In this document: one piece after another, positions 1,828 to 52,168 of the stretch
How the letters are laid out: every line of letters begins with the position of its first letter
How positions within the stretch are numbered: position 1 is the first letter of the stretch
The notes under the pieces: model-generated
The model's database searches: none
Told to the model about the DNA's origin: nothing
What the model saw: the letters and a program-made list of their open reading frames with translations, nothing else
From: Candidatus Saccharimonadota bacterium
GTDB lineage: Bacteria > Patescibacteriota > Saccharimonadia > Saccharimonadales > Saccharimonadaceae
DNA length: 64,000 nt
Assembly: GCA_030445245.1 (NCBI GenBank)
Contig: JAUCSD010000001.1
Location: forward strand, 688,671-752,670
Direction: 5' to 3'
Made by a program: the position numbers and the translations under genes

Positions 1828-1930
1828 CTAAAATACTATGATCACTTAGTGATCCTCTACCTGTCTACGTCCGGACGTGCCGAACCACTAGCAGACCATG
1901 CACTATCAATTACATTCAACAAGGAAGCTT

Positions 1931-11480: not shown

Positions 11481-12913
11481 CCTTCACTCTCCTGACCGGA
11501 AATATCACTTGGCATAATACTCTCAGCCCATAGCTGTAGTTCTTGTAGAATAAACTGTTTTGACTCATCAGGCTCTGTTGTCGCAATTCGTTGCATTGAT
11601 TTCACAAACTGAGGTAACTGCGCATTTACATGTTCGCTACGCCAGAGTTCCCAGGCGAGTGATTCATCTTCACTCAGAACCCTTGGAAAACTGCGTGCTT
11701 TGTAATGCAAAAGAAGAGGATTCAAACGTTCATCCGTAAAGTCGGGATGGAAATCTGCTAATTCACGTTCGCTAGCATTACGGACAGTCTCAATCCGTAA
11801 TCTATCTCGATCACTAACGAAACCATCATAGAGCTGTGCTTCAGGGTCAATTGCCTTTTTAAACTCACGTCTGGTTTCAAAAATAGATCGAATATTCTCC
11901 GCAAAGTGAGGTGCTTGAAGAAGTACCGTCTTATGTTTTTCAATGGTCTCTTTATCGAGGTGTATGCGCTTCCAGCCATCAGACTGTTCCAATACCCCAA
12001 GTGGAGCTACGGCTGGAGCCCGATTGTACTGCAGCTCCTGGACGGGGAGAGATATGAAGTCATCTTTTTGTCGCTCTTCCCAGGTAGCATACAACTTCTT
12101 TTTCAGTTCTTCAGAACTAAGGTCTACGACCGTTGCGGGATCGTAGCGCAAATCGTACACGACCACGCTCCCGTTCTTGCCCATCGTGAGCGGAAAAGCA
12201 ACGGTCGTCTTTTCATGATCGGCACCGTATCGTCCGCTCGTATAGACAAAAGGCTTTTTATCTTCAAGATTCACTAATTGCTTAATCTTATTCTTGTCGC
12301 GCATGCCAAGCAGGTATTCGTATAATTGCGGCTGCTTCGTTTTGATTAAATTCGTTACGGCGATAAGAGCCTCGACGTCACTGAGCGCATCATGAGCTTT
12401 AAAGTGATCAATCCCATTTTCTTTAGTAAGAAGTTCGAGTCGGTTAGTCGCCTTTCCGTCCACAACAGGCCACACGATACCATCGGGTCGCAATGCCCGT
12501 GTCATACGGACCACATCAAGAAGATCCCAACGCGAGCGTCCATCTTTCCAACACCATTCATATGGATCATAGAAGTTCCGCCACAACAAATGGCGCACAA
12601 ACTCATCATCAAAGCTAATGTTATTGAAGCCGACCATGATAGTCTCGGGCTTGCAGATCTCTTCGCTGATAAGTTTCGCGAACTCAGCTTCAGTAAGACC
12701 ATCCATTTGAGTTTGTTGGGGAGTGATACCGGTTACCATCAATGCCTCGGGACTTGGAATCGTATCATCACTTAATTTAACGAGTACATTATATGGCTCG
12801 CCTATGGGGTTAAGCTCCATATCGGTTCGAATACCAGCAAACTGCATAATGCGGCTACTACGAGGATCGAGGCCGCTTGTTTCAAGGTCATAAAAGAAAA
12901 AGGTTTGTGCCAT
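11477..12913 (-). CDS. sbcB: Exodeoxyribonuclease I
   Basis: At 478 residues this matches the length of proteobacterial ExoI. The DEDD exonuclease core is visible: YDLETSG (acidic pair near residues 9-11), NNISFDDEF near 107-115 and HDALSDVEAL near 180. The ExoI-specific SH3-like and C-terminal regions follow. The enzyme degrades single-stranded DNA 3' to 5' in recombination and repair. Only 13 nt separate its ATG from the terminator T run of the upstream structured RNA, and a TATGCT box in that gap suggests a leaderless transcript. Confidence 0.9.
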   Translation of the reverse strand: MAQTFFFYDLETSGLDPRSSRIMQFAGIRTDMELNPIGEPYNVLVKLSDDTIPSPEALMVTGITPQQTQMDGLTEAEFAKLISEEICKPETIMVGFNNISFDDEFVRHLLWRNFYDPYEWCWKDGRSRWDLLDVVRMTRALRPDGIVWPVVDGKATNRLELLTKENGIDHFKAHDALSDVEALIAVTNLIKTKQPQLYEYLLGMRDKNKIKQLVNLEDKKPFVYTSGRYGADHEKTTVAFPLTMGKNGSVVVYDLRYDPATVVDLSSEELKKKLYATWEERQKDDFISLPVQELQYNRAPAVAPLGVLEQSDGWKRIHLDKETIEKHKTVLLQAPHFAENIRSIFETRREFKKAIDPEAQLYDGFVSDRDRLRIETVRNASERELADFHPDFTDERLNPLLLHYKARSFPRVLSEDESLAWELWRSEHVNAQLPQFVKSMQRIATTEPDESKQFILQELQLWAESIMPSDISGQESEG

Positions 12914-12926
12914 ACTCTTAGCATAA

Positions 12927-12950
12927 CAAAAAACACGCTCGCTAGCGTGT
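12927..12950 (-). terminator. Terminator of the large structured RNA unit
   Basis: On the minus strand ACACGCTAGCGAGCGTGT folds into a compact hairpin and is followed by TTTTTTGTT. It fits transcription from 13712 towards sbcB, not the reverse. Confidence 0.85.
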
Positions 12951-13712
12951 AAACAAACATTAAATTATGACAAGTTGGACATATGCGTGCCGCCCGAAGG
13001 CAGAGCGGGAGGTTCGACCCCCGGCTCCCCTCCCCTTCGGGCGACGACGTCTCATGACGACTAGACTCGCGTTCAGGCTTGTTCAGCCTTTTATCTGTCT
13101 TCGCTTGCGCATAGACCACCTCTCGTTAAATGCGAGACGGGACGATGAATTACCGTGTAGCACGCGCCGTGCTGACCGACGGTAATGTCGAGCGGGTGCA
13201 TGGGTCCGCGCTGCGGGCGGCAAAGTGAGATGGAACGGGTAGTGTCAGGCGAGCCTTTACGTCACACAAGAGTGATCAGAGCTCGCCTCAGTAAAGATAC
13301 TTTCGCACAGTCCCTCAGCTTCTTGTCGAAGATGGAATCCGTCGCGCTGTCTCGTCGAGCGCCGGGCGGATTATCTGGACGGGTGGTGCCTGCCAGGCGA
13401 GATACCGCTTGAAAGCGGGCTCGCCTAGAGTCTTCGCTTGTACACTTGTTCTCCTGGTCCGGTTGAATTCCTAGCGCCTTACCCCGAAGGGCTTGGCTCG
13501 GACGAATCCGGACTTAGGTAAAACCACTGTAATGCAACAGGTCTCCTTACGAATAAAATTACTTTTCTCCGTCAGGTGGCCCGCGTCATTTCGTCGGTTC
13601 GACGCGGATTTCTATTCACAAAAGATGAACAGGAAACCGCGTCGACGTTACGTTATATATCCAACTTGTCAATGAACTATAGGAGATACGGATCGTAACT
13701 CAACTTTATAGT
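12933..13712 (-). ncRNA. Large structured non-coding RNA of unknown class (about 785 nt)
   Basis: This stretch has no credible protein gene but reads as one structured transcript on the minus strand. A promoter (13719-13747) and an intrinsic terminator (12927-12950) bracket it. The ends pair as a 17-bp stem, 13655-13671 with 12968-12984; its one non-Watson-Crick pair is G-U on the minus strand but C-A on the plus strand, which supports the strand call. Inside are a long hairpin at 13599-13645, a UUCG-capped hairpin within 13445-13513, nested hairpins at 13395-13426, 13331-13375, 13149-13186 and 12991-13042 (10-bp outer stem CGCCCGAAGG), and a pseudoknot at 13247-13296. I looked for the conserved cores of RNase P RNA, tmRNA and SRP RNA and did not find them. 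The length class resembles OLE, ROOL or GOLLD RNAs, but no match is claimed. Confidence 0.75.
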
Positions 13713-13718
13713 GTATGT

Positions 13719-13747
13719 ATATTAACACATTAATATACAAAAGTCAA
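13719..13747 (-). promoter_or_regulatory. Promoter of the large structured RNA
   Basis: TTGACT, a 17-nt spacer and TAATAT on the minus strand predict a start near 13712. A second possible -10 box, TATAAA, lies at 13705-13710. Confidence 0.6.
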
Positions 13748-13761
13748 TGATATTTGTAATT

Positions 13762-15048
13762 TTATTGTTCAAGAAGAGGAAATTCGGTATCACCAATTTC
13801 GATGATACTGTCACCCACGGCACCAGCACGTGATAGTTCATGATTGATACCAAGTTTTTTCATGATGTCGCGAAGACGGTTGACACCTTCAAAGTTATCG
13901 AAGTTCGTACGACGAGCAAATTTCTCGATTTTGTCACCCTTGATGATGAAGTGTCCGGTTTCTTGATCTTTTTCAACAGTCCATGCATCGGCAATCTGAT
14001 TATCAGTTAGACTGATAGTTGGCATGTCATCATCAGTCGCATTGATTTCATCTTCAATCGCTCGAACATGCTCAACCTTCGTGCGAAGCGCACGAAGTAC
14101 TTCTTTAAGTCCCTTGTGAGATGGAGATGAGACGGCGAATATTTCTGCCGACTTGCCTGCTGCTACTCGTAATGCATCAATCTGCATTTGAATAATTTCA
14201 TCATCGAGTCCTTCTACCTTCGTCAGTGCAATCACTTCGGGACGCTGGATGAGTTCGCTACTGTAATTTTCAAGTTCTTTACGAATAGTCTTGTATGCAC
14301 CGGCGATGTCATCCGTATATGCATCGATAAGATGCAGGAGAACAGCTGTACGCTCTACGTGACGCAAGAATGCATCACCAAGGCCCTTGCCTTCGCTGGC
14401 GCCTTCAATGAGTCCTGGGATGTCTGCAATCAATAAGCTACTGTTATCAATGTCAGCCACACCAAGGTTAGGAGTTAGTGTTGTGAACGCATAATCAGCG
14501 ATTTCTGGTCGTGCGTTACTGACAACTGATAAGAAGGTTGATTTTCCCGCGTTTGGAAATCCTACGAGTCCGACATCAGCAATTAACTTCAGCTCGAGCT
14601 CACCTTCGAACGTATCACCCTGCTCACCAAGTTCAGCGACACGAGGCGTCTGACGAACTGATGACTTGAAGTGAGCATTGCCAAAACCACCATCACCACC
14701 TTTAGCGATAACAACACGTTGGCCGTTATCAGTAAGGTCAGCGATAATTTCGCCCTTACGACGGACAATAGTGCCCATAGGTACTTTCACAATAAGGTCT
14801 TCACCAGAACGACCGCGTTTGTTCTGCTTTGATCCGTTACGGCCGTGGAACGCTTTGAGTTCAGGCTTGAAACGAAAATCTACCAGTGTGTTGACGTTCT
14901 CACTAGCTTCAAAGATAACGTCGCCGCCCCTACCGCCGTCACCACCATCAGGGCCACCTTTATCAACATAAATTTCATGACGAAAACTAACGTTTCCGTT
15001 TCCACCGTTTCCGGCTGCGATAAATACTTTAGCTGTGTCAACAAACAT
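13762..15048 (-). CDS. obg: GTPase Obg (ribosome assembly)
   Basis: This 428-residue protein has the glycine-rich Obg fold (residues 1-155, many GGxGG repeats) and a central GTPase domain with GFPNAGKST, DIPGLIEGA and the NKxD-like LTKVEG. It ends in an OCT domain (about 340-420). Obg GTPases act in late assembly of the 50S ribosomal subunit and in stress control. TATAAT at 15057-15062 lies 8 nt before the ATG, so the mRNA is probably leaderless. Confidence 0.96.
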   Translation of the reverse strand: MFVDTAKVFIAAGNGGNGNVSFRHEIYVDKGGPDGGDGGRGGDVIFEASENVNTLVDFRFKPELKAFHGRNGSKQNKRGRSGEDLIVKVPMGTIVRRKGEIIADLTDNGQRVVIAKGGDGGFGNAHFKSSVRQTPRVAELGEQGDTFEGELELKLIADVGLVGFPNAGKSTFLSVVSNARPEIADYAFTTLTPNLGVADIDNSSLLIADIPGLIEGASEGKGLGDAFLRHVERTAVLLHLIDAYTDDIAGAYKTIRKELENYSSELIQRPEVIALTKVEGLDDEIIQMQIDALRVAAGKSAEIFAVSSPSHKGLKEVLRALRTKVEHVRAIEDEINATDDDMPTISLTDNQIADAWTVEKDQETGHFIIKGDKIEKFARRTNFDNFEGVNRLRDIMKKLGINHELSRAGAVGDSIIEIGDTEFPLLEQ

Positions 15049-15125: not shown

Positions 15126-16271
15126 TTAATGAATGAAGTTATAACGGCCACCTACAGCCTCACCCCAACTCATAGTACGGCTTGTAACTCGGTTGAAGTT
15201 ACCGGCGTAGTTCATTTCACTAATGGTAATACTTTCGCCAGGATTAACTGACTCAACAATTCCAACGTGACCAGCACCACCACCATTTTGGATGATCGAA
15301 CCAACTTCAGGATCACCATCAACGGCAAGTCCTGCAGCGCGGGCATTCATTGCCCAGGTTGCGGCATTACCCCAGTAGCTGCCAACTGGACGGCCGAGTT
15401 GCATACGGCGTTCGTAAGCGTACCAAGTACAGTTACCGAAAGCATATTTGTTACCGGCTGAGGCTCGAGCTATCTGTGAGTTTACCGTTGAGTAACCACC
15501 TAGATATGAACCTTGGCTTGCAGCATTTCGAGGTGCAACGTAGCCAGGACGTTCAGCTTCTGGCAATACACCGCCAGGGACTACAATAGTTGTACCAACG
15601 TTAAGACCGCTTAGCTCGAGGTCATTAAAGGCAACAATGCGATCTTTATTCGATGCATACTTTTGAGCAATGCTATCAATAGTGTCTCCACTCTTAACGA
15701 CGTAGATAGTTCCATCTACTGGAGGAATGACAATATTCTTGCCGACTTCGATAGCATCAGAGGTAAGGTTGTTTGCCCAACGGATCGTGTCAGCTGAAAG
15801 ACCGTAGTCACTAGCTAATTTAGCGACCGTATCACCGGCAACACCAGTATACTGCTTCATCTTACGGCTATCTGCCATAGGTTGAATGATTTGTGGTTTG
15901 CTAATCACATTACTGTCATTTTGAGCAAGTTGACTCTCAGCAGAGAGTGAGACAGAAAGGTTAGCAACGTTAGTAGCGATTGGTAACTCAGCACGCTCAG
16001 CGATACCAGCAGCAACGTTAGTTGCAACAAGTTGATCGACTGACGGCTGTGTCGAAGTACTAGGCTGGACATTTGCCGCGTTGGCGACATTGTCCATTTT
16101 TTGTGGGGGTTGGTAGCCGATGGCAACCATCGACATAATAAGCAAGAAAACACCAGTATAAGCTGCTATAGTGGTTGATTTAGGTCCGCTTTTGATCTTC
16201 TTCAAACCTGAAGAATGACGAGCAAAGACCTGTTGTTTCAGCTCAGCAGTTGTAGCTTGGGCAGAACCCAT
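15126..16271 (-). CDS. Secreted or membrane-anchored peptidoglycan hydrolase, LysM-LysM-CHAP
   Basis: This 381-residue protein has a membrane anchor or signal segment near residues 31-50 and two LysM carbohydrate-binding modules (about 140-185 and 190-235). A C-terminal CHAP domain carries the catalytic cysteine in GNCTWYAYERR (near 280) and its histidine in GAGHVGIVE. CHAP enzymes cut peptidoglycan peptide bonds, as amidases or endopeptidases. The protein would act outside the cytoplasmic membrane in wall remodelling or daughter-cell separation, or against neighbouring cells. A strong promoter (16531-16559) lies about 250 nt upstream, an unusually long leader for this genome. The ATG at 16271 lacks a nearby ribosome binding site; AGGAG lies in front of an ATT 24 nt upstream. 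Confidence 0.9.
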   Translation of the reverse strand: MGSAQATTAELKQQVFARHSSGLKKIKSGPKSTTIAAYTGVFLLIMSMVAIGYQPPQKMDNVANAANVQPSTSTQPSVDQLVATNVAAGIAERAELPIATNVANLSVSLSAESQLAQNDSNVISKPQIIQPMADSRKMKQYTGVAGDTVAKLASDYGLSADTIRWANNLTSDAIEVGKNIVIPPVDGTIYVVKSGDTIDSIAQKYASNKDRIVAFNDLELSGLNVGTTIVVPGGVLPEAERPGYVAPRNAASQGSYLGGYSTVNSQIARASAGNKYAFGNCTWYAYERRMQLGRPVGSYWGNAATWAMNARAAGLAVDGDPEVGSIIQNGGGAGHVGIVESVNPGESITISEMNYAGNFNRVTSRTMSWGEAVGGRYNFIH

Positions 16272-47188: not shown

Positions 47189-48700
47189 ATGACCTCAGTC
47201 AAGTCTACTCCCGTGACGTCGCCCTCTAATCTATCGGGGTATCCGCTAAAGATAGCCGGACGGTGCATCAAAACTGTCCTAAGTGTTGTCACGGGCGCCA
47301 AACGATGGCGTTGGATCGTGGCGATACTGGCCCTGTTCATGGGTATCAGCACGCTATCGGTCCTGTTCGCAATCGTCGTCACGCCCAGCCAGAGCGTTGA
47401 CGCGCTTGGACAGCACTTTACTGTCAACGCTGCATCGCCGAGCTGGTCACTGACTGGTCCTGGCGAGATAACGGTCAACACGGGCACGCCGCAAACGTTT
47501 TACCTGGTTCCGACCAACTATTACGGCCCCGTGCGGGCGCATCTCACCGTAGATGCACCGTTTCAAGGAAGCGACCTGCTCAACAAAGCAGCGATTGACC
47601 ACAAGCTGCCGCCCGAGGTAAGCGCACGGTTTACAGCCGGTTTCCAGTCATGGCTAATGAGCTTTGTGCTCATCGTGCTTGGTACCGGTCTCTTGCTAGG
47701 CGCTAGTGTCGCCTTCCTAATCCTCCTGTTCAACAACGGGAGGAGACGGCAAGCAGGCTTGCTCGTTGTCCGTTCGTTCGTTGCAATAGTGGTGAGCTTG
47801 GTTACCGTCATCGTACTGTTCGTGACTGGCTCAAGCTCCATCGCAAAGGCAACTTCACTCGACGGGCTAGTTGGCCACAGCACACTGCACTTGTCGCCCG
47901 TGCCGAAGGGTCCAAAACTCACCGGTTACGACGCCGTCTCCATCGGCGACTCACGGGCAGCAACGCAGGGCGGGAAGGACATGGAGAAACCCTCCAAGGA
48001 GGATTCCGACTGTCGACGCAGTAGCGACTCGCTTGCGGCGCAAATTGGCCGCATCGAAAACTGGCGAGTGCTGAACCTAGCGTGTTCCGCAGCCACCATT
48101 ACCGAGGGGCTGATGGGCGAGCAATCCCGTGGCGGTCGTTTCTTGATTCCGCAAATCAGCGTAGTCAAGCAAATGACCGATGTGAAAGTTGTGTTCGTCA
48201 CCATAGGACCCAATGACCTATGGTGGTCGCGTGCAATTGGTCTGTGTTACCTGTCGGATGTCTGCAACGACAACCTGACGACACCGGACTACCAGGCGCT
48301 CCTCGAGAAGTTCAAGTGGAACTACCACGACCTTCTCGTCGAGCTTCAGGGATTGCGAAACGGTCCCGATGGGACTCAACCCGTGGTCGTCATCAACGGA
48401 TCGTACGACGTCGTCAAGCCGGGTGCAAGTTGCTTGGCAACCAAGGGCCTTAGCCCAGAGAAAATCGCCATGTTGGATCAGCGCAACGAAGATCTCAACC
48501 AGGCCCTACAAGACGGTGCCGGACTGTTCGGCTTCAGGTTCGTCAAGCCGAGGCTCAAAACCCTCTGCGCGGATCTATCCGACAGCCCCGGTCCCGACAT
48601 CCGACTGCCTACCGACCATGACGCCTTTCACCCTACGGATACCGGGGTGCTAGTTATCGCCGCCGCTGACGCGGTGACTCTGGCTGGTGCCTACCGATAG
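47189..48700 (+). CDS. Membrane-anchored SGNH/GDSL-type hydrolase, GC-rich
   Basis: This 503-residue protein starts at the ATG at 47189 (MTSVKSTPVTSP), with GAGGAAGGA about 9 nt upstream. It has a membrane helix at about 45-70, an outside domain of about 75 residues, two more helices (about 150-210) and then an SGNH hydrolase domain. The nucleophile lies in SIGDSRA (near 253), the third block is TIGPNDLWW (near 340) and the Asp/His pair is in DHDAFHPTD (near 478). Such enzymes remove acetyl or acyl groups from sugars or lipids, here outside the cell. G+C content and codon use are clearly higher than in neighbours, and it lies between two tRNA-Glu copies. Both point to acquisition from a high-GC donor. 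Confidence 0.8.
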   Translation: MTSVKSTPVTSPSNLSGYPLKIAGRCIKTVLSVVTGAKRWRWIVAILALFMGISTLSVLFAIVVTPSQSVDALGQHFTVNAASPSWSLTGPGEITVNTGTPQTFYLVPTNYYGPVRAHLTVDAPFQGSDLLNKAAIDHKLPPEVSARFTAGFQSWLMSFVLIVLGTGLLLGASVAFLILLFNNGRRRQAGLLVVRSFVAIVVSLVTVIVLFVTGSSSIAKATSLDGLVGHSTLHLSPVPKGPKLTGYDAVSIGDSRAATQGGKDMEKPSKEDSDCRRSSDSLAAQIGRIENWRVLNLACSAATITEGLMGEQSRGGRFLIPQISVVKQMTDVKVVFVTIGPNDLWWSRAIGLCYLSDVCNDNLTTPDYQALLEKFKWNYHDLLVELQGLRNGPDGTQPVVVINGSYDVVKPGASCLATKGLSPEKIAMLDQRNEDLNQALQDGAGLFGFRFVKPRLKTLCADLSDSPGPDIRLPTDHDAFHPTDTGVLVIAAADAVTLAGAYR

Positions 48701-48720
48701 ACTGAGGAGATGCAACAAAA

Positions 48721-48762
48721 GCCCCCGGAATCACTGCGTTCCGGGGGCTGCTTCATTTTTTT
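48721..48762 (+). terminator. Terminator after the SGNH hydrolase gene
   Basis: GCCCCCGGAA pairs with TTCCGGGGGC and TTTTTTT follows. Confidence 0.9.
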
Positions 48763-48772
48763 AATAATTAAT

Positions 48773-48812
48773 AGACACGCCCCAGAAAATACATTCTGGG
48801 GCGTGTCTTTGT
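48773..48812. terminator. Second strong hairpin, terminator-like
   Basis: A 14-bp inverted repeat (AGACACGCCCCAGA and its complement) is followed by TTTGTTTG. It stands 25 nt after the previous terminator and ahead of 150 nt (48813-48964) in which I see nothing. Confidence 0.65.
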
Positions 48813-48964
48813 TTGTAAATTCAATTTGGTGACCCCACTCCTCCCGAATTGGAATAGCATCTGTTTCGAAATACTACGATGGTATGAAGTATTGAAGAAT
48901 ATACAGTGGCCAGTAACATCCCCTGTGTGAATAGAATACGGATAGTGCTAAAACGTAATGAGTC

Positions 48965-49534
48965 TTAGGCAATTACGGCTTCAGGTACTACTCCAATTGA
49001 AAGTAGCTCGTCTCCAGCTTCTTTTAGCATAGCCAAGTATGGTTCAAATGCTTCTGAGATATTTTTTATCTTTCCATCTTCCCCTGACATATCACGAGTT
49101 ATCGTGAACGCTGGGCTGAGGCCTGTCGGTCGCATTTTTAGAAGTTCAACGACATCACGAAGATGCGTTGATGCACCCTGGCCACCACGTACTCCATAGC
49201 TGGCAATCATAGTTGGCTTATCTGTCCATTCATGATAGAGATAGTCGATGGCATTTTTCAATGCCGCTGGGAAGCTTGCGTTATATTCTGGCGTCAAAAA
49301 TATATATCCATCAGCTTCCTTGATTTTCTGGCTCCATGCTTTAGTGTGGGCTTTTGTATATTGGTTCATAGCAGGATGAATCGGTTCATCTAAAAGTGGC
49401 AGGTTGTAGTCAGTGATGTCGACAATTTCATATTCTGTTAATTTTTGCGTCGGTAGATTTGCTACTAGCCAGTCGGCAATTTGCGGACCGACACGGCCAG
49501 GGCGTGTGCTGCCAATAATTAATTGGATTTTCAT
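48965..49534 (-). CDS. NAD(P)H-dependent FMN reductase
   Basis: This 189-residue flavodoxin-fold protein has IIGSTRPGRVG at the FMN phosphate site, NLPLLDEP and LTPEYNASFPAALKNAIDYLYHEW, the classic block of the NADPH-dependent FMN reductase family (ChrR/YieF-like quinone or azo reductases). AAAGGAG precedes the ATG. It is divergent from an HxlR regulator, which likely controls it in response to quinones or other electrophiles. Confidence 0.92.
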   Translation of the reverse strand: MKIQLIIGSTRPGRVGPQIADWLVANLPTQKLTEYEIVDITDYNLPLLDEPIHPAMNQYTKAHTKAWSQKIKEADGYIFLTPEYNASFPAALKNAIDYLYHEWTDKPTMIASYGVRGGQGASTHLRDVVELLKMRPTGLSPAFTITRDMSGEDGKIKNISEAFEPYLAMLKEAGDELLSIGVVPEAVIA

Positions 49535-49581
49535 GGTTGAGGCTCCTTTAAAACTTTACTATGTATAGTATGTACATAGAT

Positions 49582-49600
49582 GGTACTTATTGTAAGTACC
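49582..49600. promoter_or_regulatory. Candidate HxlR operator
   Basis: The palindrome GGTACTT-ATTGT-AAGTACC sits between the divergent reductase and regulator promoters. A second palindrome, TATGTACATA, lies about 5 nt away. The placement fits binding by the dimeric HxlR protein. Confidence 0.55.
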
Positions 49601-49625
49601 GACATTAAAGTGCTATACTAACCAT

Positions 49626-50000
49626 ATGGTACGTATAAACGACGAAGATATACTGAGACCCGAATGTGCAGCTCCATCTGTATTAAATCTAATAGCCAGT
49701 AAATGGACGGTCATGGTTATGCACGTTTTACAAGGCGATGTAAAACGATACAGCGAGCTGACAAGTGCTATGCCGGGTATCACTCAAAAAGTATTGACCG
49801 CTACACTCAGAAAACTAGAGCGAAATGGTATTGTCGAGAGAACTGTTTACCCTGTTGTCCCACCAAAAGTAGACTATAAGCTAACGAAACTTGGTTATGA
49901 GTTGCTTCATGCTACAGAAGGAATGGCAGAGTGGGCAGAAAGTTATAGTAAAGAAGTTACAAAAGCTCAACTAGAATATGATAATCGTAATTCTTTATAG
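49626..50000 (+). CDS. HxlR-family transcriptional regulator
   Basis: This 124-residue winged-helix protein has the HxlR pattern: CAAPSVLNLIASKWTVMVMHVL, with a cysteine near the N-terminus that could sense electrophiles, RYSELTSAMPGITQKVLTATLRKLERNGIVER and KVDYKLTKLGYEL. It would bind as a dimer to the palindrome upstream and control the divergent FMN reductase and itself. TATACT lies 6 nt before the ATG, so the message is probably leaderless. Confidence 0.92.
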   Translation: MVRINDEDILRPECAAPSVLNLIASKWTVMVMHVLQGDVKRYSELTSAMPGITQKVLTATLRKLERNGIVERTVYPVVPPKVDYKLTKLGYELLHATEGMAEWAESYSKEVTKAQLEYDNRNSL

Positions 50001-50169
50001 CGACAAATACGTCTAACTTATAAATTATAATTTGGCACATGAAGTGGATTAGATCTAACATATTTCTATATATTCGCCAATGTAAATTGAAGTCTCCTAA
50101 CAGATACGAAAAAACCTCCAAGCTTATTTAACAAAACTTAGAGACTCTTTCTCATCTATCTGCGACACT

Positions 50170-50244
50170 TGGTGATCTCACCGGGAATCGAACCCGGATT
50201 GCCAGGATGAAAACCTGGTGTCCTAACCGTTAGACGATGAGACC
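50170..50244 (-). tRNA. tRNA-Glu (anticodon UUC)
   Basis: The sequence folds as a full cloverleaf: acceptor GGTCTCA/TGAGATC, anticodon arm CCAGG-TTTTCAT-CCTGG with anticodon TTC, and T arm CCGGG-TTCGATT-CCCGG. The CCA end is encoded. Confidence 0.95.
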
Positions 50245-50349
50245 ATACGTAAGTTAGCGTTTGCTATTGTAACAGATTGAGACCAAAAGTAAAAGACCCT
50301 TTACCCGTTCACGAAAGTGATGTAGATAGACATGATCGAGGTCTAGCTA

Positions 50350-50378
50350 TTGACATTTAAGCACTTTTGTGATAAATT
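50350..50378 (+). promoter_or_regulatory. Promoter of the GC-rich cassette leader
   Basis: TTGACA, a 17-nt spacer and TAAATT predict a start near 50385, over 300 nt before the first large gene. Confidence 0.65.
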
Positions 50379-50390
50379 ATAAGCAACATT

Positions 50391-50443
50391 GATGAGTGAA
50401 GCAATTAGGACCTCATACTCCTATTAGCTATGAATCACTCATC
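50391..50443 (+). promoter_or_regulatory. Leader with an 11-codon open frame enclosed in a stem
   Basis: GATGAGTGA (50391-50399) pairs with TCACTCATC (50435-50443). The ATG of a short open frame, MSEAIRTSYSY (50392-50427), lies in the 5' arm, only about 7 nt after the predicted transcription start. The layout resembles a leader peptide, but no amino-acid run points to a specific attenuation signal. Confidence 0.4.
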
Positions 50444-50491
50444 GTGAGGACGTTAATAATCAGGCTACAACTTATCGTACTACTTTTGCGA

Positions 50492-50535
50492 GTGCAGCCA
50501 TGAGGATATGATTCCTCCTATCTTTATGGCTGCAC
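50492..50535 (+). promoter_or_regulatory. Hairpin over the start of a 28-residue hydrophobic frame
   Basis: GTGCAGCCAT pairs with ATGGCTGCAC, with an inner GAGGA/TCCTC stem. The structure would cover the GAGGA and ATG of the small frame at 50508 and could block its translation. Confidence 0.45.
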
Positions 50536-50594
50536 TTGTAGCTATTCTTATTGCTTCATTCTTAAAGATTGAGGTAATAAAAATAAGTATGTAA
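50508..50594 (+). CDS. Possible 28-residue membrane peptide
   Basis: MIPPIFMAALVAILIASFLK followed by IEVIKISM is one hydrophobic helix with a short charged end. Its start lies inside a stable hairpin. GAGGA is only 2-3 nt from the ATG, so the ribosome site is poor. Size and hydrophobicity are like type I toxins or small membrane regulators, but there is no homology evidence, and it may be chance. Confidence 0.25.
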   Translation: MIPPIFMAALVAILIASFLKIEVIKISM

Positions 50595-50608
50595 CTATAA
50601 ATAGATTC

Positions 50609-50664
50609 ACAGGTGTAGCACGCTATCGATCAATCCAATTTGGTCGCAGGCGTGCTACACCTGT
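50609..50664 (+). repeat. 15-bp inverted repeat upstream of the GC-rich cassette
   Basis: ACAGGTGTAGCACGC and its exact complement flank a 26-nt loop. It lies between the small leader frames and the GTG at 50702. It may act as an RNA hairpin in the leader or mark the edge of imported DNA; no T run follows. Confidence 0.6.
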
Positions 50665-50701
50665 CCAGTCACCCTGTTTCACAAGATCCGAGGAGATCAC
50701 C

Positions 50702-51136
50702 GTGGAGTCCATCGTCTTCCCTGTCGGCACCCCCATCGATGCCGAGCTCACCACCGGCACGCCCGCCGCACTGTTCCGTCCCGCCCTTGCCATCGTCGCC
50801 CACGGGCCCGACGGCTCGTCGTGGGAGCGGGGCATGCGGGCGTTCACCGAGGGCCTGCTCAACTGCGTCAACGCGACGCGGATCAGCACCCAGTGGGACC
50901 TCATCGACTGCGCCGTCCGCATCGGCCTTGAGGCTGCCGCGGAAGGTCGCACCGACGCCAACGCCGCTATCAAGCTGGCGTGGGCGGAGTACGAGCGCCT
51001 GGCCGCCGTCGAGGTCGGCGACCCCATCGAGGGTCAGCCGACCCCGAAGAAGCGCGTACCGCGCAAGCTGCGCGACGTCAAGAAGGTCGTCGTCAGCCTG
51101 TTCACGAGGGACGAGAAGCCGGCCGCCAAGGTCTAA
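50702..51136 (+). CDS. Hypothetical protein of GC-rich cassette, 144 residues
   Basis: This soluble protein has a helical middle (WERGMRAFTEGLLNCVNATRISTQW; AAEGRTDANAAIKLAWAEYERLAA) and a basic C-terminus (KKRVPRKLRDVKKVVVSLF). The GTG start has GAGGAG at 6 nt. Third codon positions are nearly all G or C (GCC, GTC, CTC, AAG), in sharp contrast to flanking genes. I do not recognise a domain. It is followed after 51 nt by a second gene of the same composition, and both probably came together from a high-GC actinobacterium-like donor. Confidence 0.7.
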   Translation: MESIVFPVGTPIDAELTTGTPAALFRPALAIVAHGPDGSSWERGMRAFTEGLLNCVNATRISTQWDLIDCAVRIGLEAAAEGRTDANAAIKLAWAEYERLAAVEVGDPIEGQPTPKKRVPRKLRDVKKVVVSLFTRDEKPAAKV

Positions 51137-51187
51137 TTCCCGTCTCATCCCCGAAACGCGTACGCTCTCAGAAGGAGACACTCGACC

Positions 51188-52168
51188 ATGTGGATCATCT
51201 ACGCCCTTCTCGGGCTCAGCACCGTGGCGGCCATCGTCATGTGCGTCAAAACCAAGAAGCTGGCGTGGGTCATCCTCGCCGGCCTCGCCGTGGCAACCAT
51301 CATCAGTCTCGCGATCAATGCCCCCTGGTGGGTGCACGTCGCGAACCTGACAATCGCGGCGATCGCCATCCTGCTCATGGCACTCCGTAGTGTCGGGCGC
51401 AGGGTTGGACCGATCGTGGCGCTTCTGTTGACCACGATCATCGTGAGTTACACGGCGATGTTCTTCGTTCACAACTTCAACGAGACGCACGTGCCGGGCA
51501 CACCGAACGCCGAGACCATCAAGGCGCTCACTGTACTCAAGCCGGATCGGTCGTGTAAGAAGTCCGAGTTCAACATCGGAGCGCTCAAGTCCGTCGACCC
51601 CGACGGACGGCAGCGGTCCGACGCAACCTCGACGCCGTTCGACTCCGCCGACCCGACCAAGATGGTCGGAGAGGTGAAGACAGCGGTGTGCACCGATCCG
51701 CTCTACGGAGCGCAGGTGATGAACTTCCTCGCCAACCTGAAGCTCGGCTCGTTCAAGGTCGTTTCCGCCAACCTGTGGCTGAACGACTTCAAGGGCGATG
51801 CTGCAGCTATCAACGCGGCGGCATCCAAGTATGTCGCGCTTCGGGACAAGAAGCACCCGACCAAGGCTGAAGTCGCGGAGATGAGCAAACTCGAAAATGA
51901 GTGGCGGACCAAGGCCAACCTGGCCAACGCGCTGCTCGACAGGTTCGGCGACCCCGTGGTTCGCACGGGTCAGCCGACCCTGAGCTACCACCTGCTCGGC
52001 ACTGGTTCTGTGATCTCGGGTCTTCCCGCGGTCGCACTCAACGACAAGCAGCAGACACGGTCGTCCCTACAGCTCACGCTCACCCCGAAAGGTGAGTCGA
52101 ACTGCGTGATGGTCGTCGGCTTCGACATCACTACCAAAGACCTGGGTCAGTACCCCTGCCCTAGCTGA
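51188..52168 (+). CDS. Membrane protein with large outside domain, GC-rich cassette
   Basis: This 326-residue protein has about four N-terminal helices (1-95) and an outside domain of about 225 residues with four cysteines (SCKK, VCTD, NCVM, YPCPS) that may form disulfides. A helical section (KYVALRDKKHPTKAEVAEMSKLENEWRTKANLANALL) lies in the middle. AGAAGGAGA stands about 10 nt before the ATG. Codon use matches the preceding gene and not the rest of the window. No domain is recognised. Confidence 0.75.
   Translation: MWIIYALLGLSTVAAIVMCVKTKKLAWVILAGLAVATIISLAINAPWWVHVANLTIAAIAILLMALRSVGRRVGPIVALLLTTIIVSYTAMFFVHNFNETHVPGTPNAETIKALTVLKPDRSCKKSEFNIGALKSVDPDGRQRSDATSTPFDSADPTKMVGEVKTAVCTDPLYGAQVMNFLANLKLGSFKVVSANLWLNDFKGDAAAINAAASKYVALRDKKHPTKAEVAEMSKLENEWRTKANLANALLDRFGDPVVRTGQPTLSYHLLGTGSVISGLPAVALNDKQQTRSSLQLTLTPKGESNCVMVVGFDITTKDLGQYPCPS

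Follow-up and report, generated by a model that had tools for sequence, protein, structure and literature searches.

Between the housekeeping genes sbcB and obg, the window analyzed here (64,000 nt of G000, the complete 1.16-Mb genome of an ultrasmall Saccharibacterium) carries a minus-strand unit of 785 nt (12927–13712) in which no ORF of credible normal size was found. The question raised by this locus is what kind of transcript such a stretch specifies: a structured RNA of a known class, a purely noncoding RNA of a new one, or an RNA that is folded and translated at once.

Architecture of the Locus

The neighboring genes are both read from the minus strand (sbcB start codon at 12913, end of obg at 13762), and the features of the unit between them are collected in Table 1. 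Promoters of the TTGACA/TATAAT type align at equal distance in relatives, and the position and motif (GTTGA...TCC) of the 5′ hairpin P0 also recur there, the covariation tests described below having covered P1 and P2. The single U-G wobble in P1 makes its pairing valid on the minus strand only. The structured body reaches a GC content of 0.60, compared with approximately 0.45 outside the unit. Folding of the minus strand gives −300 kcal/mol (z = −6.9), which none of 20 shuffles equaled, but the plus strand folds well too (z = −5.6), so the strand is not given by folding alone; it is indicated by the promoter, the terminator, the wobble, and the homologues. A sequence-only reading of the window had described a promoter, a strong intrinsic terminator, a 17-bp stem joining the ends, and at least eight hairpins, with a wobble that, like promoter and terminator, fits the minus strand only; all of these structural claims hold. 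Its further statement that no credible protein gene is present is correct for genes of normal size and fails for smaller ones, as three SD-led ORFs of 6–9 codons lie inside the unit, one of them conserved.

Table 1. Features of the unit between sbcB and obg (window coordinates).
Feature	Position	Strand	Remarks
Promoter	13719..13747	(-)	−35 TTGACT 13747-13742, 17-nt spacer, extended −10 TG-x-TAATAT 13724-13719
P0, 5′ hairpin ACTATA...TATAGT	13676..13712	(-)	Internal GTTGA/TCTCC motif; adjoins presumed transcription start
P1, 5′ arm TGACAAGTTGGATATAT	13655..13671	(-)	17-bp stem with 3′ arm
P2, long hairpin right after P1	13599..13645	(-)	Fold and covariation
Micro-ORF 1, TTG CAT TAC AGT GGT TTT ACC TAA = MHYSGFT	13537-13514	(-)	SD AAGGAG 13548-13543; SGFT-stop family
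GC-rich structured body, several hairpins	12985..13513	(-)	Hypervariable among relatives
Micro-ORF 2, GTG...TAG = MYKRRL	13445-13425	(-)	SD AGGAG 13455-13451; basic class in relatives
Micro-ORF 3, ATG...TGA = MRKRRQIKG	13112-13083	(-)	SD GAGGTG 13122-13117; candidate
P1, 3′ arm ATATGTCCAACTTGTCA	12968..12984	(-)	Closes RNA end to end
Intrinsic terminator ACACGCTAGCGAGCGTGTTTTTTG	12927..12950	(-)	13 nt ahead of sbcB start codon; same site in relatives

Comparison With Known RNA Classes

The Rfam scan that had been recommended as a check was run with Rfam 15 and matched no known family at its gathering score; a permissive threshold gave chance matches only, the best of these weak hits being to a microRNA family (E = 0.16). 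A resemblance to the large ornate RNAs OLE, ROOL, and GOLLD had also been proposed, and here the models disagree, the best GOLLD score being 10 bits on the wrong strand (E = 5.2) against a gathering score of 150, so that kinship with these RNAs is not supported. Two housekeeping RNAs were rejected as well. Neither Rfam nor ARAGORN places a tmRNA at the locus and no RNase P RNA model matches there, and the genome encodes both elsewhere, the tmRNA at G000:1148501-1148909 (99 bits) and RNase P RNA at G000:1146248-1146592 (263 bits). With no Rfam match above chance, these two RNAs located elsewhere, and stems that covary, the view of a highly structured minus-strand RNA of no recognized class stands.

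Searches of phage records (BLASTN with the whole RNA) and of viral contigs returned nothing better than chance; no sbcB relative was found on the viral contigs, and the five of them that matched an SD-SGFT pattern are estimated to be no more than chance would give. In a literature search outside which most subscription papers lay, no earlier description of the RNA was found. Two other Rfam motifs do occur in the window, namely lysM-TM7 RNA (RF03005; 16300–16449, minus strand, 114 bits), which immediately precedes a LysM gene at 15126–16271, and MDR-NUDIX RNA (1835–1894, plus strand).

Relatives and Their Distribution

When the whole RNA is compared with the genomes of the family by BLASTN, only the 5′ arm of P1 (GTTCATTGACAAGTTGGATAT) is detectable, in four genomes of other genera. 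All four matches fall between obg and sbcB, and the region upstream of sbcB was therefore compared in 120 family genomes, of which about 30 others proved to have the same arrangement in the same gap. The order of elements in these relatives is fixed: promoter, P0, TACATTGACAAG, P2, 3′ arm, terminator, sbcB. The homologues that were to be sought between obg and sbcB exist, nearly invisible to BLAST. Their interiors range from approximately 350 to 780 nt and are not alignable when whole RNAs are submitted to MAFFT. A covariance model of the 5′ module, built from 22 such modules, gave 44 matches, spread over 40 of 198 family genomes; approximately 37 of them lie no more than 1.7 kb upstream of sbcB, and about 16 of these 37 are outside the model-building set.

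The RNA is a single copy in G000, the one genome by which its genus is sampled; pattern, covariance model, and leader motif searches all failed to find a second. At least 23 sampled relatives with adjacent obg and sbcB have a gap of only 17–124 nt and no RNA, and some others possess two or three tandem copies, or copies elsewhere than the sbcB site. Given this patchy presence, with 23 empty gaps, and the tandem copies, the RNA is accessory and not essential. Its retention in a reduced genome had been taken to suggest an important role, an argument weakened by the 23 relatives that lack it, by the tandem copies elsewhere, and by the very fast evolution of the interior. In one locus (L090, genome G100), three consecutive and different promoter-to-terminator structured RNAs lie between obg and sbcB, the second of which holds UCGAACCCCCG; in the window RNA, UCGAACCUCCC is present close to the 3′ end.

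Covariation of the Closing Stem and the Second Hairpin

Loci were counted for P1 at a stem score of at least 31 with the arms at the expected site. Nearly 30 loci score 31–42 there, as compared with a mean of 22.9 in shuffles (sd 3.6, n = 285), among which single ones reach the high thirties, so that position and context count besides the stem score. The arms are distinct in sequence in 30 of 30 cases and all complementary, with more than one type of pair in 15 of 16 columns, the perfect pairing being partly a matter of construction because the loci were recognized by complementarity; the independent evidence for P1 is confined to position, arm diversity, and the shuffles. P2 was folded from the alignment free of any selection for complementarity. 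Double (compensatory) changes are present in 18 of its 19 consensus pairs, in 106 double-change cells against 34 ± 4.7 in shuffles, and its covariation score is 0.61, as opposed to 0.21 in shuffles and 0.07–0.13 for slid partners. Covariation of stems among homologues had been proposed as a check, and P1 and P2 both covary strongly, which establishes a new family of structured RNA in the Saccharimonadales.

Micro-ORFs and a Conserved Peptide

In a set of 32 RNAs, ORFs led by a 6-nt SD number 38, versus 5.7 ± 2.8 in shuffled sequences (maximum 12) and 10 on the reverse strand, and the same search limited to 5–13 codons finds 22, versus 1.3 in shuffles and 1 on the reverse strand. SD-led short ORFs at a 6-nt SD are thus 7–17 times more frequent than in shuffles. 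This strong enrichment, together with the conservation of one peptide, speaks against the original interpretation of the RNA as purely noncoding. Among the three micro-ORFs in the window, conservation at the peptide level is seen for micro-ORF 1 only, which starts with TTG; basic micro-ORFs like 2 and 3 occur in several relatives. Micro-ORFs 2 and 3 themselves share AAGCGAAGAC (K-R-R), as if one had been derived from the other.

The pattern [ST]GF[TIV]-stop was observed 8 times and never in 100 shuffles. Peptides of the SGFT type include, besides MHYSGFT of the window, MVRSGFT, MLHPEAGFT, MYTSGFT, MHTSGFT, MNTSGFT, MYTSGFI, and others; each ORF has its own SD, and often there are two in an RNA, one of which encodes both MEIWSGFT and MDWPSGFT. 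About half or more of the members have no SGFT. In 26 ORFs of this type, serine is encoded by AGC, AGT, TCT, TCA, and TCG, that is from both codon boxes, glycine by all four codons, and phenylalanine by both, with the proviso that the patterns used to collect some examples fixed GGNTTYAC and TAG and so overstate how well Gly, Phe, Thr, and the stop are conserved; one search pattern left the Ser codon free. Such varied codons, and serine from both boxes in particular, point to selection acting on the peptide. Two of the features by which a dual-function RNA of the RNAIII kind can be recognized are accordingly found in the family: a conserved secondary structure, in the covariation of P1 and P2, and a conserved short ORF with a ribosome-binding site, in the SGFT-stop ORFs and the SD enrichment.

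SGFT ORFs were encountered elsewhere too, in genera without an RNA at the sbcB site. Five loci (L162, L163, L169, L170, and L209) contain SGFT micro-ORFs, mostly paired, in stand-alone transcription units away from sbcB, and the small genes around these units have promoters and terminators of similar strength and type.

Longer ORFs and Their Codon Usage

In many of the RNAs, P2 is shortly followed by an ORF of 28–55 codons that has an SD and starts with ATG, instead of or besides micro-ORFs; the window RNA is without a GC3-rich ORF of this length. GC3 in this class is 0.89–0.97 (about 0.93), with GC1 of 0.4–0.6 and GC2 of 0.4–0.65, and that of the adjacent obg 0.38–0.49 (about 0.43). Codon optimization for high expression was rejected as the cause, as ribosomal proteins and EF-Tu in four genomes with such ORFs do not share the high GC3 (0.31–0.55). 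Nine loci carry a high-GC3 ORF of 28–55 codons, against 0.03 in shuffles and 2 on the reverse strand. Ten of the peptides had no match in Pfam, and no evident common sequence was seen among the peptides of this class. In one close pair (L102/L114), indels keep the frame and most changes alter the peptide.

Elsewhere, L264 (G026) encodes, at oriented position ~2786 and near tandem copies of the RNA, an SD-led small protein with a signal peptide (MKMRLARFAAAAVLAAAMVVVPAAPSQAAP...) and a GC3 of 0.85. The window itself contains genes with a GC3 that is high for the genome, namely a GDSL lipase at 47189–48700 (0.67), 50834–51136 (0.93), and 51188–52168 (0.83), with a tRNA-Glu (50170–50244) in their midst; these genes at 47189–52168 were possibly acquired from a high-GC host.

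The Scaffold in Other Families of the Order

The covariance model also matches other families of the order, in which ordinary protein genes follow the leader with GGTACATTAACAAG. In L270, the P1 stem (GACATGTTAGGTAGG) spans 895 nt, and the SD-led gene within it encodes a protein with a signal peptide and an LPKTG anchor (LPxTG type); the leader precedes a 60-aa membrane protein in L269 and a 314-aa DUF2807 protein in L266. L267, which contains assembly gaps, lies between obg and sbcB and encodes MYTSGYP. For L265 and L266, no convincing 3′ arm was found within the DNA examined, and L268 may be a false match. These loci suggest that the scaffold serves as a format for mRNAs whose payload can be exchanged, the window RNA being a version with very short coding sequences.

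Interpretation and Alternatives

The comparisons demonstrate a conserved, covarying scaffold (P1 and P2, plus a promoter, 5′ hairpin, and terminator whose order does not vary) around an exchangeable, fast-evolving interior rich in micro-ORFs. The explanation preferred here is that the minus strand of 12927–13712 specifies a stand-alone closed-stem mini-mRNA, or "cassette", with a conserved scaffold, an exchanged payload, and translated micropeptides, a reading of sequence comparisons to which we give about an even chance. P1 and P2 would shield a strongly transcribed RNA from exonucleases and hold its ends together, while ribosomes would load at internal SDs and make the micropeptides. The selected feature in RNAs of the window type would be a C-terminal SGFT leaving the ribosome; arrest or slow release linked to termination at the SGFT stop could then park ribosomes on the RNA, and the parked ribosomes would control the folding or persistence of the structured body. 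Termination-linked arrest is favored because it is mainly the last four residues before the stop that are conserved, the N-terminus being free. A ribosome-arresting or signaling heptapeptide is our best guess, and the step from scaffold and translation to arrest is itself a guess that we regard as doubtful; the present evidence would fit arrest and a secreted or intracellular peptide product equally.

The main rival to arrest, which we consider rather unlikely, is a mini-mRNA for diversifying effector or signal micropeptides. The scaffold would then be a cassette for stable expression, and the peptides would have their action outside the cell or on the actinobacterial host, a role mirrored in their hypervariability and GC-rich codons. 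A payload that varies by genus, ORFs of 28–55 aa with an actinobacteria-like GC3 near 0.93, the in-frame indels and predominantly amino acid differences of L102/L114, the LPxTG and adhesin-like or membrane-protein payloads of other families, and the small secreted protein of L264 would all agree with it, but no signal peptide is evident in the 28–55 aa peptides, ORFs of that class are absent from the window RNA, no exporter is linked, and the SGFT peptide shows conservation, not diversification. That the RNA is instead purely noncoding, ornate or protein-binding, and its SD-led ORFs incidental to purine-rich loops, we consider improbable: the enrichment of micro-ORFs is lost in shuffles and on the reverse strand, SGFT is conserved as a peptide through both Ser codon boxes, and codon periodicity in the 28–55 aa class is strong. 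In favor of such an RNA are the strongly covarying structure, the large GC-rich body, and window ORFs of only 6–9 codons.

Pairing of 5′ and 3′ ends, small peptides, and a patchy, sometimes tandem occurrence are also properties of type I toxin mRNAs such as hok, in which an inert transcript with paired ends yields a toxic peptide upon activation. This reading is nevertheless very unlikely, since the peptides do not resemble hydrophobic helices of 20–60 aa (MHYSGFT, MYKRRL, and MRKRRQIKG are none, and the conserved peptide has only 7 aa) and no antisense gene was recognized; on the plus strand from 12000 to 15000 no promoter-terminator pair stands out in a consensus scan that itself performs at chance level. 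Two further readings have the slightest chance of all. A cis-regulatory leader or attenuator of sbcB would explain the position directly upstream of that gene in most genomes, but the RNA ends ahead of sbcB at a terminator of its own, some copies lie at other sites or in tandem, and many relatives have sbcB without the RNA. A mobile element with terminal inverted repeats forming P1 would account for inverted arms, patchy occurrence, and tandem copies, but the arms differ between genomes in 30 of 30 cases, which leaves no shared end for a transposase, the arms are flanked in constant order by promoter and terminator, and G000 has a single copy.

Relation to Known Systems

The idea of an RNA both folded and translated has precedents in RNAIII and hok. 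Staphylococcus aureus RNAIII, a folded RNA of approximately 500 nt with paired ends, encodes one peptide of 26 aa and regulates mRNAs by pairing; the window RNA resembles it in its paired ends and small coding capacity but has no sequence kinship with it, contains several ORFs of 6–9 codons, and belongs to a family in which the interior is exchanged. The mRNAs of hok and other type I toxins are stable and combine long-range 5′-3′ pairing with a short ORF, as here, whereas the window RNA has no hydrophobic toxin-like peptide and no antisense RNA was found for it. Like tmRNA it is a folded RNA with a short ORF; unlike in tmRNA, each ORF comes with an SD and a start codon of its own, and nothing resembling a tRNA end was recognized. 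The lysM-TM7 RNA is Saccharibacterial too and lies only 2.6 kb away in the window, but its model scores the window RNA at 16 bits (E = 3.8) against a gathering score of 61.5. OLE, ROOL, and GOLLD are large ornate RNAs that are densely folded and expressed on their own (PMC12286853). They are approached in size, dense folding, and predicted stand-alone expression, but the window RNA matches none of their models, has no link to phages above chance, and carries SD-led ORFs. Leader peptides and arrest uORFs, such as those of erm and TopAI-YjhQ, consist of a very short SD-led ORF acting as a ribosome-stalling sensor with RNA structure after it (PMC5118997, PMC12121999). A very short SD-led ORF is followed by structure here as well, but the RNA ends in a terminator with no regulated gene downstream in the transcript. 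We know of no kind of RNA that combines a covarying end-to-end stem, a conserved heptapeptide ORF, and an interior in which payloads from micropeptides to surface proteins are exchanged. As a sequence-structure family it is new, with nothing in Rfam 15 and no earlier description found.

Implications

With this locus, a phylum in which hardly anything is known of RNA biology gains an RNA family supported by covariation. Its members stand between noncoding RNA and mRNA, the window RNA having a large fold and being seemingly translated only into peptides of 6–9 residues, and the class goes unseen at present because RNAs and ORFs of these kinds are both passed over by annotation pipelines. There is a slim chance that it represents a Saccharibacterial class of exchangeable closed-stem mRNA cassettes, with payloads ranging from heptapeptides to surface proteins and with host-like (actinobacterial) codons, and that the RNA or its peptides may act in the host. 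The alien codon usage of the longer micro-ORFs, which would suggest peptides perhaps aimed at the actinobacterial host, poses for an obligate epibiont a directly testable question about its dealings with its hosts.
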